A stretch of DNA of 38,244 nt from Synechococcales cyanobacterium RM1_1_8 (lineage in GTDB: Bacteria > Cyanobacteriota > Cyanobacteriia > PCC-9006 > JAAUQQ01): the NCBI GenBank assembly GCA_012032745.1, contig JAAUQQ010000004.1, positions 1 through 38,244 on the forward strand, written 5' to 3'. The translations under genes were made by a program, and so were the position numbers. A model generated the notes under the pieces. The model was not told where the DNA came from. It made no database searches and worked only from the letters and a program-made list of their open reading frames with translations. Of the stretch, positions 35 through 19,875 are shown one piece after another; the first letter of the stretch is position 1, and each line of letters starts with the position of its first letter.

Positions 35-1444
35 TTATTGGCGAGGCCCCGGTAGGACAATGTTCAGCAGTAACGCGGTTAGGCCGCCCGTGCTGATGCC
101 TGAGGAAAAGATGCTTTTTGCCAGGGGAGGCAGTTGTTCGAGGATATCGGGTACGACGCTGACCCCGAGGCCGAGACCGAGGGAGACCGCCAGAATAATT
201 GAAGCACGTTTGGTGAGGTTGACGCAGGAGATGATCTTGATTCCGGCCACGGCTACGGTGCCAAACATGATGATGGTTGCGCCGCCTAGAACGGGCTGGG
301 GAATGGTTTGGAATACGCCTGCGACGACGGGCACTAGGCCGAGCAAAACGAAGATGCCAGCGATGAAGTAGCCCACATAGCGGCTGCCGATGCCGGTGAG
401 CTGGATGACGCCATTGTTTTGGCTGAAGGTGGTGTTGGGGAACGTGTTGAAGATAGCGGCGATCGCTGAATTGACGCCATCTCCCAAAATCCCGCCCTGA
501 AGACGATCAAAATAAACTTTTCCAGTAATCGGCTGTCCCGAAATTAGCGAGGTGGCCGTCAAGTCTCCAGTAGATTCAATCGTTGTGATCAAATACAGGA
601 AAGCAAAGGGCAGGAATGCAGCAATATTGAAGCCAAATCCATACTTAAAGGGAATTGGAATGGTGACCGGCGCTAAGCCACCCAAATTGCTAAAGCTCAC
701 CATGCCCATGGGAATCGCTACGATATAGCCCACAATCAGGCCGATCGCCACAGAAGCCATGCGCAGAAAACTGCTGGTGGTGTTGTTCAAAACCACAATC
801 ACGGCCAGAACTAAACCCGCTAGCAACAGATTGGGAGCGCTGCCGAAGGTGCCTGCTCCCTTCGCTGCGAAGCCGCCACCGATGCTGGTCATGCCCACAT
901 TGATCAAAGTCAAGCCAATCAGCGTCACCACAATGCCGGTGACCAGCGGCGTGATGATCTTGCTAGCAAAGCCCATGAATCGGCTAAACACCATTTCGAT
1001 AAACGAGCCAAAAAAGCAAAGCCCAAAGATAGTTCCCAAGGCTGTCTGGGCCGATCCCCCAGCGCCTTTGACTCCCAATCCTGCAGCAATAATTGGGCCG
1101 ATAAAGGCAAAGCTGGTGCCCTGGATGCTGAGCAGCCCAGAGCCTACGGGACCAATGCGTTTGGCCTGAATAAATGTGGCCACACCGGAGACAAACAGCG
1201 ACATGCTGACCAGGTAAGCGGCATCGGCAGGCTCCAATTCCAATGCTCCTGAGATAATCAAGGCGGGAGTAATAATGCCGACGAAGGAAGCAAATACATG
1301 TTGGAGGGCGGCAAAAATCGTATCTCGCAGGGGCGGTCGAGAGTCTAAACCATAGATCAAATCCGTTTCAAAGGCGACCGTTTGGGTTGGTGCGGCATCC
1401 AGCGTATCGGCCTGGCTGGAAGGAAGGTTTTGGCTAGTGCTCAT
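35..1444 (-). CDS. NCS2-family nucleobase:cation symporter (xanthine/uric acid/uracil permease-like)
   Basis: ORF 35..1474 (-); multi-TM protein with NCS2-like motifs (QHVFASFVGIITPALII, NNGVIQLTGIGSRYVGYFIAG, PQPVLGGATIIMFG). Internal ATG (MSTSQN) is the likelier start. Confidence 0.9.
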   Translation of the reverse strand: MSTSQNLPSSQADTLDAAPTQTVAFETDLIYGLDSRPPLRDTIFAALQHVFASFVGIITPALIISGALELEPADAAYLVSMSLFVSGVATFIQAKRIGPVGSGLLSIQGTSFAFIGPIIAAGLGVKGAGGSAQTALGTIFGLCFFGSFIEMVFSRFMGFASKIITPLVTGIVVTLIGLTLINVGMTSIGGGFAAKGAGTFGSAPNLLLAGLVLAVIVVLNNTTSSFLRMASVAIGLIVGYIVAIPMGMVSFSNLGGLAPVTIPIPFKYGFGFNIAAFLPFAFLYLITTIESTGDLTATSLISGQPITGKVYFDRLQGGILGDGVNSAIAAIFNTFPNTTFSQNNGVIQLTGIGSRYVGYFIAGIFVLLGLVPVVAGVFQTIPQPVLGGATIIMFGTVAVAGIKIISCVNLTKRASIILAVSLGLGLGVSVVPDILEQLPPLAKSIFSSGISTGGLTALLLNIVLPGPRQ

Positions 1445-1507
1445 CGTTAAAAGCTCCAAGAAGGAAAGGCTCAATCAGGGAAAATTGAAAGGACAGCTTG
1501 AGGCATC

Positions 1508-3418
1508 TTAGAACCGAAATTGAGTCCTCAGATTGCCAACCCAAATCGTTGGATTATCGCTAAAGTTGTTGGGGTTACGAACCATATAAATTGCGGGTAC
1601 GAGGGCAATATTGTCGCTCAGTGGGAAGTAGTAGGTGGCTTCAAACTCATGTTGAATACCCCCGTCGCCGCCGCCGGAAACAAGATACTGCCGCCCATCC
1701 AAAATCGAATAGGGAATGCCATAGGAGAGGGTCAACAATGCGCCCTCCCGCCCTAGGTCAGGCAGGGCAACTCCTCCTTGAACCGCCTGGGCATTGACTT
1801 CCCCATCGACCAGGGCACGATTCTGGGGATCGAGGTTGGTGCTGCCATAGTAGTAGCGGCCAAAGAGGCCGATTCTCTTGGCCAACCGCCAATCAAAACT
1901 GATACCAAATGTGTCTGCCGTTGCACCATTTAAGCTACCGCCTTGGCCATCATCGGCCACCCCATAGATCGGCTCGCTGGTGGCTCCACCGACACCAAAG
2001 GCAACGCTACCATCGGCATTGACAATGCGGGCATTGTTGTCCAGATTGGTGCGGGTATAGAGCAGCCGCACATTCATCTTGTCGAAGGGCTTGATGTTTG
2101 CAGCGGCGGTCAAGGTATTGGTGCCGCCGAAGATGCCTTCAGTCGCATTGGTCGCAGTATTGAACAACGTATTGTTAAGAAACTCAGTGTTCTCTCCCAA
2201 GTAGCCCACATTCAAATCCAGCCAATCCGTCGCATTCCAGCGCACCACAGCGCCAGCACCTCGATCAATTGCGTTGGCGAGGGTACTGCCGCTGGCATTG
2301 AAACTGCTCGCACCGTTGAGGAAAAAGGTGTAGGCATTGCCATCAAAGTAGCGATACCAGTTGATGCGGGGGCCAACAACGACCTTGATCTTTTTGCCAA
2401 TGGGGAAGTCATAGAACAGTTCCCGCACTACCGGAACATTGGCACTGGTGGTGCCCGCTTGGTCAGTAAAGGGCGTGCCAAAGGTATTGAATAGGCCCGC
2501 CGAGGCATAGGAATTGGCGGGGGAGAAGCTGTTGCCAACGGCCAGTTGGGTGACCAGGCTATCGCGGCCCGTGAAGGAGGTGGTTAGGTTGAGAAAACTG
2601 TAGGAACCAAAGGTGATATTGGGATCGTCATCGGTAGTCTGGACCAGGGGCCTGCCATCCAGCCCGCGCCCGGCTCCGCGCAGGTTGAGGGGACCGCCCA
2701 GGCCGCGAGCTTCGATTTGGACATCGCCGCCAGCAGTTGCTCCGGTGAGGTTAAAGAAAACATTGCCGCTGAGCTTGGTCGTGGTCGAAAACTGGTTGGC
2801 TTCCAGCTCCGCTGTTCTGGCTTCTAGGCCATCAATGCGCCCGCGCAGGGTGGCCAGCTCAGCCTGGAACTCCTCTTGTAGACGCTGGATAATTGCCAAG
2901 TCCTCCTGGGTGGTGGAGTCAGCAGTTGCAGAAGCAATTAATTCATTGACGCGATCCAGGCAGGCATTGAGGCCAGCGGCGAACTCGTAGCGCGTCATGG
3001 CGCGATCGCCCCGATAAGTACCATCAGGATAGCCTGCGATACAGCCGTAGCGCTCAACCAAGGATTGCAGGGCCTGGAAAGCCCAGTCCGTCGGGCGTAC
3101 ATCGCGAAGCTGGCTGACACTGGTGACCTGGGCCATGGGATCGTCCGGGCTGAGGACAGCCTCGGAAGTCAGGGGATCCTGGAGATCAAGCTCCAAAGCA
3201 GGCGCGAGGTCAAACTCGCTTTCAGGCTTTAGCTTCAATGCTGGGTTAGGGGCTGGGTTAGGGGCTGGGCTGGAGGCAATGCCCGGCTCGGGTGCAGCAG
3301 CGCTGGGCTGAGCCAGGCCCAGGATGGCACCTGCCGTAGCACCCAGGACCAATGGAGCTAAAAGCTTTGACCTTGAATCTCTGTGATTCAACCCATCCTT
3401 TCTGATAAAAGCGGCCAT
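1508..3418 (-). CDS. Cyanobacterial SLH-domain porin (OprB/SomA-like carbohydrate/iron-uptake porin family)
   Basis: Signal-like N-terminus, SLH motif (LRDVRPTDWAFQALQSLVERYGCIAGYPDGTYRGDRAMTRYEFAAGLNACLDRV), coiled coil, long beta-barrel region ending in F (LRTQFRF). Confidence 0.9.
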   Translation of the reverse strand: MAAFIRKDGLNHRDSRSKLLAPLVLGATAGAILGLAQPSAAAPEPGIASSPAPNPAPNPALKLKPESEFDLAPALELDLQDPLTSEAVLSPDDPMAQVTSVSQLRDVRPTDWAFQALQSLVERYGCIAGYPDGTYRGDRAMTRYEFAAGLNACLDRVNELIASATADSTTQEDLAIIQRLQEEFQAELATLRGRIDGLEARTAELEANQFSTTTKLSGNVFFNLTGATAGGDVQIEARGLGGPLNLRGAGRGLDGRPLVQTTDDDPNITFGSYSFLNLTTSFTGRDSLVTQLAVGNSFSPANSYASAGLFNTFGTPFTDQAGTTSANVPVVRELFYDFPIGKKIKVVVGPRINWYRYFDGNAYTFFLNGASSFNASGSTLANAIDRGAGAVVRWNATDWLDLNVGYLGENTEFLNNTLFNTATNATEGIFGGTNTLTAAANIKPFDKMNVRLLYTRTNLDNNARIVNADGSVAFGVGGATSEPIYGVADDGQGGSLNGATADTFGISFDWRLAKRIGLFGRYYYGSTNLDPQNRALVDGEVNAQAVQGGVALPDLGREGALLTLSYGIPYSILDGRQYLVSGGGDGGIQHEFEATYYFPLSDNIALVPAIYMVRNPNNFSDNPTIWVGNLRTQFRF

Positions 3419-3436
3419 TCAATTTTCTCCGGAACT

Positions 3437-3454
3437 CACACACACACACACACA
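3437..3454. repeat. (CA)9/(TG)9 dinucleotide microsatellite in the leader of the porin gene
   Basis: Sequence reads ggaactcacacacacacacacacaaatctg, about 19 bp upstream of the porin ATG (minus strand). Confidence 0.95.
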
Positions 3455-3706
3455 AATCTGACAGCCCAAAGCAGGCGTAAGGAAAGGGTTAAAGAAAACT
3501 GGATTTTGAAAAGTTAAAATAAAGGGCGATCGCCCTTGATTCTTCTCTCTAAATTCCCTGCATTCTGGAAGCTGCTTAGCCCGACAGAGGCTGTCGTTTT
3601 ATACAACCTAAGCGCTAGCTTCAATTGAAATTGTGTTTCAAAATACGATATGCAAAATACCCGCCTCTGGGATCAGCTATCTTGTCTGCTTTTGACCTGT
3701 TCCATC

Positions 3707-4093
3707 CTAGCTGCCGCGATAGGTGCTGTAGGACCAAGGCGAGACCAGGAGCGGCACATGGTAGTGGAGACTGGCATCGGCAATGCAAAATCGAATTGGC
3801 ACCGTTGTCAAAAACGGATGCTCACTGGGAAGCAAAAGCTGAGTTTTGGCAAAATAAGGACCAACCTCAAACAAGATTTCATACAGCCCCACCTGAAAAT
3901 CCTCTGCTTCTAACAGAGGAGCATCGGTGCGACCATCGGCATTGGTTTCCACGGTTTTGAAGTGCTGATGCTTGATCCCCGCTCCAATTTCAGCTTCGCC
4001 AGTGGCCTGTTCTAGCCTCCAAAGGGACAGCGCCATTCCAGCAGCGGGGCAACCCTGGGCCGTATCCAAAACATGCGTTGACAACCATCCCAT
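3707..4093 (-). CDS. uraH: 5-hydroxyisourate hydrolase (transthyretin-like)
   Basis: N-terminal [37 protein letters not shown]-terminal signature (YRGS) of HIUase. Confidence 0.93.
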
Positions 4094-4198
4094 ACCTAAT
4101 CTCTCCTCACTCCGATGGAGCCCAACCCGAACCCCTAATTTCCCGACCCATTACCTCTCCCCGACTCCCGACTCCCCACTCCCTAATTCCCTATTCCC

Positions 4199-5368
4199 CT
4201 ACCCCATCGGCCCTCCCAAAATAATCCTCGCCAACGCCCCAGTCACCGCTTCCGGCGGCTCCTGTTTCAATTCTTCATACCACTCCTCAGTCATCTCCGG
4301 ATGCTTGCCATAAATCGTATCCGTGCGTCTGCGGGCCTTGAGCACCAGCTCCGACGTGCGAGCTTTGCGGGCCTGCTCATAGCGCCCTAGGGCATCGCTG
4401 ACACTGAGATTCGTTGTTACTAAATAGCGGGCCAGCATCGCGGCATCCTCCATGGCTTGGCAGCCGCCTTGGCCTAGGGTGGGGGTGGTGGCATGGCCGG
4501 AGTCGCCCACCAGGACAATGCGGCCCTTGGCCAGGTGAGCCGGGGGATCAATATCGCTGATTTCTAAGCGGTTGGCCTGTAGGGGATCCAGGGTCTGAAT
4601 CAACGTTTGGACGGCAGTAGGCCAGCCGAGAAATTGCTCCACCAACTCCTGGCGTCGATCCTCGGGGGGAACCTGGCTGCCCTCGGCCATGGGCGCGCCG
4701 AAGAAATAGTAGAAGCGATCGCCCCCCACGGGCATCATCGAAGCTCGCTTGCCCTCGCCCACATACAGCACCCAGTTATCGGCCTCACAGAGCTCCGGCA
4801 GGGCGGGCACCAATCCATTCCAGTTGACATAGTCCGCATAGCGGGTGGGAATGGCTTCGCCGAGTACATGCTCCCGCACGATGGACCGAATGCCATCGGC
4901 CCCAATAATCAGATCCCCGCTGGTGCGGTGGCCGTTCTCAAACACTGCTGTGGCGCTGGTTTTATCCTGCTCCACCCCAATGCATTTCATGCCCAGTTGC
5001 ACTTCCACTGCGCCAAAGGCATCGAGCAACATTTGCTGCAGGTCGGTGCGGGCGACGGGGTAGGGACGCTGGCCCACGGTTTGGAACAGCGGCTGGAGGT
5101 CTATCTGGCTGAGGGGCTCATCCTTGTGGCTGCGGTATTCCATGCGATTCATTTCGCCCCCGATCGCCGCAATCTCTCGCCCTAAGCCCAGTTGATTCAG
5201 CACCTTGACGCCGTTGGACCAGAGGGAAATGCCTGCGCCTGCGGGGCGGAGCTGGTGGGTGCGATCGTAGATTTCCACCTGGTAACCCAGTTGCTTTAGA
5301 GCGATACCAGTGGTGAGGCCACCAATGCCCGCGCCGATAATGATGGCTTTGAGGTCATACATAAGCAA
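4199..5368 (-). CDS. hpxO: FAD-dependent urate hydroxylase (HpxO-like flavoprotein monooxygenase)
   Basis: GAGIGGLTTGIALKQLGY Rossmann motif, YADYVNWNGLVP, YVGEGKRASMMPVGGDRFYYFF, GDSGHATTPTLGQGGCQAMEDA, ending LGGPMG; the pattern resembles HpxO more than generic salicylate hydroxylases. Confidence 0.85.
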   Translation of the reverse strand: MLMYDLKAIIIGAGIGGLTTGIALKQLGYQVEIYDRTHQLRPAGAGISLWSNGVKVLNQLGLGREIAAIGGEMNRMEYRSHKDEPLSQIDLQPLFQTVGQRPYPVARTDLQQMLLDAFGAVEVQLGMKCIGVEQDKTSATAVFENGHRTSGDLIIGADGIRSIVREHVLGEAIPTRYADYVNWNGLVPALPELCEADNWVLYVGEGKRASMMPVGGDRFYYFFGAPMAEGSQVPPEDRRQELVEQFLGWPTAVQTLIQTLDPLQANRLEISDIDPPAHLAKGRIVLVGDSGHATTPTLGQGGCQAMEDAAMLARYLVTTNLSVSDALGRYEQARKARTSELVLKARRRTDTIYGKHPEMTEEWYEELKQEPPEAVTGALARIILGGPMG

Positions 5369-5459
5369 GTAAAGAATCGGGGAATGAATCGTGGAAAGAT
5401 GAAGTTATAGGTTCCAACCTGGACCGCTTCCCAGGAAGCTTGAGCCATCGGCCAAAGCT

Positions 5460-5475
5460 ATTCTCAAATATCCTC
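5460..5475. repeat. Remnant terminal inverted repeat (ATTCTCAAATATCCTC) of the MITE family found at 30022-30151
   Basis: 15/16 match to ATTCTCAAACATCCTC with shared upstream flank GCCAAAGC; no matching left end found nearby. Confidence 0.6.
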
Positions 5476-6002
5476 TGAGGTTGGAGGCCAGAAGATGTCC
5501 AAGGCCCAGATTAGCACTGGCTCTGGCAATTCCGATAGAGCCTAGAAGCTTCCCTCCATATCATTCACGCTAGATCCTAAGCTCGGCTCCGCTTGGGCAT
5601 AGGATGCAAAACCAGGCTGGTTCCCAGACTTGAGCTTCCAGACTTGAGCCCCAGCTTTTGCCTCTCACGGCGAGACGAGTAAATCACTGTTCTTTCGAGC
5701 TGTCTTTAATCGCTTGTTAGGAAAAATATAACGACACTGCAATAGGTGAAATTGTAGCTTCAGTTACAGAAAAGACGAGGAGTGAAGGTTGAGGATTCTA
5801 GCATAACGATGGCTTCTACTCTAAACAGATTTCATGCCCATGCAAACGAACATTTGATAGTAGTATAAGGGCGTTCACCTCATTTTTACGACTGTGCTTG
5901 GGGGGCTGATGTTGGCCCAGGCGTTTACAGGCATTAAGATTGTTCAAAATGTCATCGGTGATGTTTGGGAGAGGGCTTAGTGATTTTGTCTGGGGATAAA
6001 GT

Positions 6003-6093
6003 AGCTAGTAGACTCGGGCATGGGTTTTGTCCCCCTCACCCCAACTTCCCTCCCACAAAGGGGAGAGGGGCTCCGATCCGTCTCCCCTTCTCC
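6003..6093. repeat. Dispersed ~90-bp repeat, copy 1
   Basis: AGCTAGTAGACTCGGGCATGGGTTTTGTCCCCCTC...CTCCCCTTCTCC aligns along its length to 29894-29983. Confidence 0.8.
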
Positions 6094-6124
6094 AATCGAA
6101 AGCACTCAGATCATCTGGGGCCGC

Positions 6125-6448
6125 TTACTTTTGGGCTGCCGCGATCGCGCTAATGCCACAAATAATCAACCCAATGCCCAACCACTGCAACAGCGGCACT
6201 TTTTCATTCAGTACAACCCAGCTACATAAAGTTGTTGCAACAACCGTTAGCCCCAAAAGAAGGGGATAAGCGAGGGATAAATTGCTTTTGCTCAGCACCA
6301 CAATATAGGCTACGGTGCTGATTCCATAGAGTCCCAAGCCACTGATCAAATATGGGTTTATCAGCCCCTTCCCTGCCCCTTGCTTCAGCAACAGTTGCCC
6401 CGAGGTGTTCAGCACCGAGCTAAATAGCATTAGCAGTATAAATTGCAT
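6125..6448 (-). CDS. EamA/SMR-like small membrane transporter
   Basis: Four predicted TM segments: MQFILLMLFSSVLNTSGQLLLKQG...LAYPLLLGLTVVATTLCSWVVLNEKVPLLQWLGIGLIICGISAIAA; start inferred at internal ATG. Confidence 0.8.
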   Translation of the reverse strand: MQFILLMLFSSVLNTSGQLLLKQGAGKGLINPYLISGLGLYGISTVAYIVVLSKSNLSLAYPLLLGLTVVATTLCSWVVLNEKVPLLQWLGIGLIICGISAIAAAQK

Positions 6449-14526: not shown

Positions 14527-14539
14527 TTCTAAACTAAGA

Positions 14540-14656
14540 CCTGGCATCGAGCTAGTTTAACGAGCAGCGACCCGCTCACTATCTTCGCCGCAGATGCGTT
14601 TCACAACCGAGTTCGAGATGGTTCGGAGTGGTTCCACATCGCCATAGACACCAGGA
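14540..14656 (-). rRNA. rrf: 5S ribosomal RNA
   Basis: Reverse complement TCCTGGTGTCTATGGCGATGTGGAACCACTCCGAACCATCTCGAACTCGGTTGTGAAACG...; ends approximate. Confidence 0.95.
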
Positions 14657-14825
14657 ATGCGATTGAATTCACCATCTTGCACTCACACAAGATGGAGAAC
14701 CCAGAAGGCTGCATAGAGTCACTAGCTTTCTCAAACTAGCAAACATGATGAACTAAACACCAACCACCCGATTCAAATCCCTTCCTCGCAGAAGAAAACT
14801 AGAATCAAAGTCAATCAGCCATTGA

Positions 14826-17763
<2,938 letters not shown>

Positions 17764-18045
17764 TCATGCATACCGCATTACCAATAGCTCTCGCCCTAAG
17801 GCTCAAACTATAACTAACGCAGCCACATCAGTCCAATTCTTGGTGTCTGTAAAATCAGTTCACTCTTGGAAAGCAAACTGATACTACCCATTCATCATTT
17901 CTCTATGCAGTTTTCTAGGTTCTCGTTGAGTTGAAAACTCAACAATCTCTTCTCTTAAACTAGGTCGCTGTTACACTTACCTGCCGTAGAAAATAAGGTG
18001 TTGAATTTCAGTCCCTCTATCTCACTCCGTAAAGCTCGCTCCTAA

Positions 18046-18118
18046 TGGAGGTTAGCGGACTTGAACCGCTGACATCCTGCTTGCAAAGCAGGCGCTCTAC
18101 CAACTGAGCTAAACCCCC
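18046..18118 (-). tRNA. tRNA-Ala(TGC)
   Basis: Reverse complement GGGGGTTTAGCTCAGTTGGTAGAGCGCCTGCTTTGCAAGCAGGATGTCAGCGGTTCAAGTCCGCTAACCTCCA, 73 nt cloverleaf. Confidence 0.97.
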
Positions 18119-18167
18119 AAATTAATTCGGAGTTCTACGCATTACTTCAATAATTCGTGGTAATTGG

Positions 18168-18241
<74 letters not shown>

Positions 18242-18386
18242 GAATATTAAATGAACCACTCAACAGAGCAATTGAAAGCTTAAAGGTGTAAGACACTTCG
18301 GTCAAACACAAATCCTCGAACGACCTTGGGATAACTTCATACTCACCTAATTCAATGTGGTTCGGCGTAGTACAAGCAGGTCTCCC

Positions 18387-19875
<1,489 letters not shown>

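Follow-up and report, generated by a model that had tools for sequence, protein, structure and literature searches.

Four genes on the minus strand of a cyanobacterial contig, encoding a urate hydroxylase (HpxO), a 5-hydroxyisourate hydrolase (HIUase), an outer-membrane porin, and an NCS2 permease, probably form a nitrogen-regulated, two-membrane module for the scavenging of urate and related purines. The stretch that we analyzed (38,244 nucleotides, hereafter the window) is the whole of contig C249, from a cyanobacterial genome that is fragmented into 486 contigs and is 87.7% complete. Inspection of the open reading frames found all four genes to be open and intact, and their products score above the curated cut-offs for their families, which confirms the gene set, the order (hpxO–uraH–porin–ncs2), and the strand that an earlier note on this DNA had assigned to them. 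The genes, together with two candidate control sites considered below, are as follows:

4199..5368, minus strand: hpxO, FAD-dependent urate hydroxylase (NF033623; 46% identity to 3rp6)
3707..4093, minus strand: uraH, 5-hydroxyisourate hydrolase with C-terminal YRGS (TIGR02962; best solved relative 4q14)
1508..3418, minus strand: outer-membrane porin with SLH and OprB domains, from a separate clade linked to purine and N-heterocycle genes (PF00395 and PF04966; tree)
35..1474, minus strand: NCS2 xanthine/urate-type permease (TIGR03173)
5725..5767, minus strand: NtcA-type class II promoter-like site of hpxO, GTAACTGAAGCTAC-N23-TATATT (strict motif, once in the window)
3605..3646, minus strand: NtcA-type promoter-like site of porin–ncs2, GTATTTTGAAACAC-N22-TAGGTT (core motif)

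The listed start of hpxO is a TTG codon at 5368, with an in-frame ATG two codons downstream at 5362; for ncs2, an ATG at 1443 is a more likely start than the TTG at 1474. Given the gaps between hpxO and uraH (105 bp), between uraH and the porin gene (288 bp), and between the porin gene and ncs2 (33–64 bp), two transcription units are likelier than one. A single operon is disfavored, the 288-bp gap having a promoter-like site of its own. The window also contains G-rich, repeat-like intergenic stretches (at 4100–4200 and 1–40) and a complete rRNA operon (5S–23S–tRNA-Ala–tRNA-Ile–16S, 14539–19874, minus strand) that is usable for identification of the organism.

In a profile search HpxO scored 581 bits against the NCBIfam equivalog NF033623, for which the cut-off is 500, and the protein aligns almost full-length with the structure of Klebsiella HpxO (3rp6), the identity extending over 384 residues. 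Arg204 and Tyr216 of the Klebsiella enzyme, which we take to be active-site residues, are kept in the window protein and are invariant in all 52 rows of our alignment besides Klebsiella (45 cyanobacterial rows and 7 from Marinomonas, some rows being one genome seen twice). Structure 3rp8 differs from 3rp6 in having Gln in place of Arg204. It is very improbable that the flavoprotein is a related aromatic monooxygenase and not a urate hydroxylase. Such an assignment could draw on Asp293 of Klebsiella HpxO, presumably a urate contact and not, as far as we are aware, a defining one, which is replaced by Thr in the window protein and likewise in 31 of the 45 cyanobacterial rows. The other 14 rows have Asp, and because the residue varies within the family it is not diagnostic. 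The equivalog score, the invariance of R204 and Y216, and the fact that in most cyanobacterial loci hpxO adjoins uraH and/or uraD all argue for urate hydroxylase instead. HpxO is also rare in the phylum: 25 of 388 cyanobacterial genomes have a match of at least 580 bits, the next match scores 250 bits, and by this measure HpxO is sharply set apart from the other flavoprotein monooxygenases of cyanobacteria. No match was found among the listed relatives of the organism, three from its genus and two from its family, most of which have incomplete genomes.

The uraH product scored 118 bits against the TIGR02962 equivalog (cut-off 87), and its best solved relative is an HIU hydrolase. The permease scored 438 bits against TIGR03173 (cut-off 414), and the solved structures closest to it are of chains that bear the name uric acid-xanthine permease. 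It is like UapA and the bacterial xanthine/urate permeases of the NCS2 family in its TIGR03173 match and its QNNG motif (here QNNGVIQLTG), and a preference for urate or for xanthine is not readable from its sequence. Judged by family membership, the predicted urate chemistry of the cluster is well supported.

What is the setting of hpxO in other cyanobacteria? The adjoining uraH and/or uraD are often joined by ncs2, and some loci add genes for PuuE, allantoate amidohydrolase, 8-oxoguanine or guanine deaminase, or a GntR regulator. A VanA-type Rieske oxygenase recurs in the purine clusters (L065, L068, L069, L074, and L075), where it might oxidize hypoxanthine or xanthine instead of xanthine dehydrogenase. 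An SLH porin is found near hpxO in seven cyanobacterial genomes, including that of the window, and beyond these seven Leptolyngbya foveolarum has a partial SLH porin gene near hpxO. The exact porin–permease–uraH–hpxO order, which the earlier note had raised as a possibly conserved one, is not maintained across cyanobacteria; the genes reassort in many arrangements. The purine-utilization (hpx) genes of Klebsiella include hpxO and genes for a permease, an OHCU decarboxylase, and an HIUase (PMC4562309), all of which have counterparts in the present system. Cyanobacterial relatives likewise encode PuuE and a Rieske oxygenase nearby, along with a regulator of the GntR type, whereas the outer-membrane porin and the NtcA-type promoter-like sites are additions of the cyanobacterial system.

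The OHCU decarboxylase, which the earlier note had placed outside the window, is indeed encoded elsewhere in the same genome: uraD lies at the edge of contig C70 (C70:10–468), which cuts it near its first codons, and the gene that follows it encodes an 8-oxoguanine deaminase (664.7 bits; cut-off 532). It is plausible that these two genes directly continue the window cluster, since the direction of uraD fits a leftward continuation and the end of the window is G-rich and of low complexity. Such G-rich sequence may be why the contig breaks off before uraD. Searches of the genome, run family by family, also revealed an AllC-type hydrolase on C336 (397 bits), which matches at 58% a cyanobacterial allC that adjoins hpxO. 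Neither an allantoinase (PuuE or AllB) nor the Mo-subunit of xanthine dehydrogenase (MoCoBD_2) was found above cut-off in this genome, about 12% of which is missing. A candidate HpxD-like Rieske oxygenase was rejected, the matches being only partial (33–41%).

We turn now to the porin, which has an SLH domain at residues 105–147 and an OprB barrel and which scored 382 bits (cut-off 100) against NF033921, an NCBIfam family named "iron uptake porin." SLH porins are multi-copy, with 2 to 14 per genome, and hence chance proximity to hpxO had to be tested. The present genome has four full-length NF033921 porins and one split copy, which occupies two reading frames (G000:C334:12469–13856) and possibly reflects a frameshift or an assembly error. 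The hpxO-linked porins and nine others are 47–62% identical to the window porin, and full-length porins outside this group are at most 42% identical. In a 68-row tree, one clade of 16 (SH-aLRT 100, stem 0.71) includes all seven full-length hpxO-linked porins. A profile search for the clade found 37 copies in 28 of 388 cyanobacterial genomes. HpxO is present in 18 of these 28 (Fisher 1.3e-18, kinship ignored), the association being weak when stratified by family (p = 0.07), and seven HpxO genomes are without a clade porin. Could the window porin be an ordinary SLH porin, a channel for iron or inorganic ions that lies here by chance? Its NF033921 score and the several family copies in the genome are what such a view would predict. 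We nonetheless regard it as improbable, as the clade is separate from most other porins in the tree, its linkage to purine genes is seen repeatedly, with differing gene orders, both on chromosomes and on a plasmid, and its promoter-like sites appear to resemble those of nitrogen control, not iron control.

The linkage emerged from a comparison of clade porins with the other SLH porins of HpxO-bearing genomes, in which we scored core purine genes (a reference set drawn from the hpxO loci) within 8 kb. Such a gene was found near 11 of 37 clade porins and near 0 of 40 others (p = 1.3e-4), and with the seven seed porins left out the counts were 4 of 30 and 0 of 40 (p = 0.03). The four linked non-seed loci are 8-oxoguanine deaminase–porin–alr–allC (in which the gene that we take to be alr was named by sequence recognition), uraH–porin, guaD–porin, and ncs2–porin. 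The earlier note's proposal of a porin role in purine uptake, drawn from gene order alone, thus gains support from the association of the clade with purine genes elsewhere among cyanobacteria. Against it, 26 of 37 copies have no core purine gene nearby. Since the clade also occurs away from purine genes, the range of nitrogen compounds that its porins serve may extend beyond urate. Six more of them adjoin genes for a BMP-type ABC importer, a ring-opening amidohydrolase, or XDH-like proteins, for an overall count of 17 of 37 that includes gene families picked after the loci were seen and named partly from sequence recognition. The clade porin is beside a BMP-family ABC importer in L190, L203, L206, and L208, some of which also have cysteine hydrolase or amidase genes, and these loci suggest a second organic-nitrogen uptake context. 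In L199 and L200 the neighbors are xanthine-dehydrogenase-like by sequence recognition, the large subunit gene being about 1 kb away in L200. In L211 (3080–9080; complete genome G014) the clade porin gene, which is downstream of ncs2, is split by an insert of about 4 kb into separate N- and C-terminal parts.

Promoters activated by NtcA have the sequence GTAN8TAC, centered near –41, together with a –10 box of the form TAN3T. In ChIP data GTN10AC is the best-conserved core, and in published examples the NtcA site and the –10 box are 21–24 nt apart, mostly 22 (PMC3898017, PMC9430850). An NtcA site had been anticipated upstream of position 5368, and we found a candidate at 5725–5767. This is the sole match in the window to the strict motif followed by N23 and a –10 box (0.01 expected in shuffles; both N22 and N23 were examined, so the expectation figures for the single window are slightly generous). 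Since the site is 399–405 bp from hpxO, a long leader is expected; no credible Rfam match to a riboswitch was found at 3400–6200. The candidate site of the window porin has a CAC half-site, which tells against the proposed module. In the window the NtcA motif stands out from shuffles only when combined with a spaced –10 box: strict GTAN8TAC alone is near chance (2 found versus 1.76 expected), and matches in a sigma-70 scan were no more frequent than in shuffles. Across the clade, GTN10AC-N22-TAN3T is upstream of 16 of 36 porins as compared with a mean of 1.0 in mononucleotide shuffles, and the signal spikes at a spacing of 22 alone, with counts of 0–4 at other spacings. The N22 site was also found for 4 of 11 ncs2 genes and 7 of 43 other SLH porins (clade versus other porins, p = 0.012).

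These sites bear on the main rival to a purine channel, namely that the clade is a general nitrogen-limitation channel for urea, nitrate, or small organic nitrogen compounds, with its proximity to purine genes reflecting shared NtcA control and not purine selectivity. NtcA-type sites do precede clade porins far from purine genes (for example, in L183, L187, L193, and L210), and the importer, amidohydrolase, and XDH-like neighbors, recognized partly by sequence, would also suit a general channel. On the other hand, the purine linkage is specific to the clade, with no instance among the 40 other SLH porins, and an enzyme as rare as HpxO is present in nearly two-thirds of the clade genomes. We judge a general channel to be unlikely, with perhaps a one-in-four claim on the evidence.

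A search of plasmid records, independent of the sequences that built the porin clade, gave plasmid ABRG53c of Pseudanabaena sp. ABRG5-3 as the best match for the porin and the best plasmid match for hpxO. The plasmid carries hpxO, uraD, puuE, and genes for a ring-opening amidohydrolase and a gamma-glutamylcyclotransferase together with uraH and the porin gene, as well as genes for an ABC importer, 8-oxoguanine deaminase, a Zn-hydrolase that matches cyanobacterial allC at 64.8%, and a GntR regulator. Its porin, annotated "iron uptake porin," is 59% identical to the window porin. The sequence GTAACCTGATATAC-N22-TACAGT is located 68 bp upstream of the start of the plasmid hpxO, and no NtcA-type N22 promoter-like site was found for the plasmid porin. 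Locus L204 of genome G197 similarly has a gamma-glutamylcyclotransferase-like gene, uraH, the porin gene, and an ABC importer, and because their gene content is alike the two may share ancestry.

The gene identities, the presence of uraD in the genome, the porin clade, its linkage, and the promoter pattern are supported at the level of sequence, and they suggest the following scheme. Under nitrogen limitation NtcA would activate hpxO–uraH and porin–ncs2. Urate, and probably xanthine too, would enter by the SLH/OprB porin in the outer membrane and then by the NCS2 symporter in the inner membrane. HpxO would convert urate to 5-hydroxyisourate, HIUase would convert this to OHCU, and UraD, encoded elsewhere in the genome, would yield allantoin. 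The AllC-type hydrolase would act after the allantoinase step, which was not found in this genome. As to the clade as a whole, we tentatively propose, at somewhat short of even odds, that it is a previously undescribed family of outer-membrane channels, under the control of NtcA, that admit purines and other N-heterocycles and are at present annotated "iron uptake porin."

The window porin shares its SLH and OprB architecture (the NF033921 family) with SomA/SomB, Slr1908, and Anabaena Alr4550 and All7614, and differs from them in belonging to a separate clade linked to purine genes. The role proposed for it, passage of purine compounds across the outer membrane, is like that of Tsx, the nucleoside channel of the Escherichia coli outer membrane, which belongs to another family and has no SLH anchor. 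We found no description of a cyanobacterial purine porin in the open-access literature. The major outer-membrane proteins of Synechocystis, according to PMC9705863 (citing Kowata 2017), pass inorganic solutes and not organic ones, and a dedicated porin for organic nitrogen would therefore be useful. Our results suggest that the label "iron uptake porin" is misleading for this clade, and for the passage of organic nitrogen across the outer membrane they point, in sequenced strains, to a specific clade of porins, with a candidate class of substrates and a candidate regulator. If the proposal is correct, the clade lets some cyanobacteria bypass an outer membrane that is nearly closed to organic nutrients, and urate, for example from animal waste or dead cells, could be a nitrogen source for the cyanobacteria that carry the genes.
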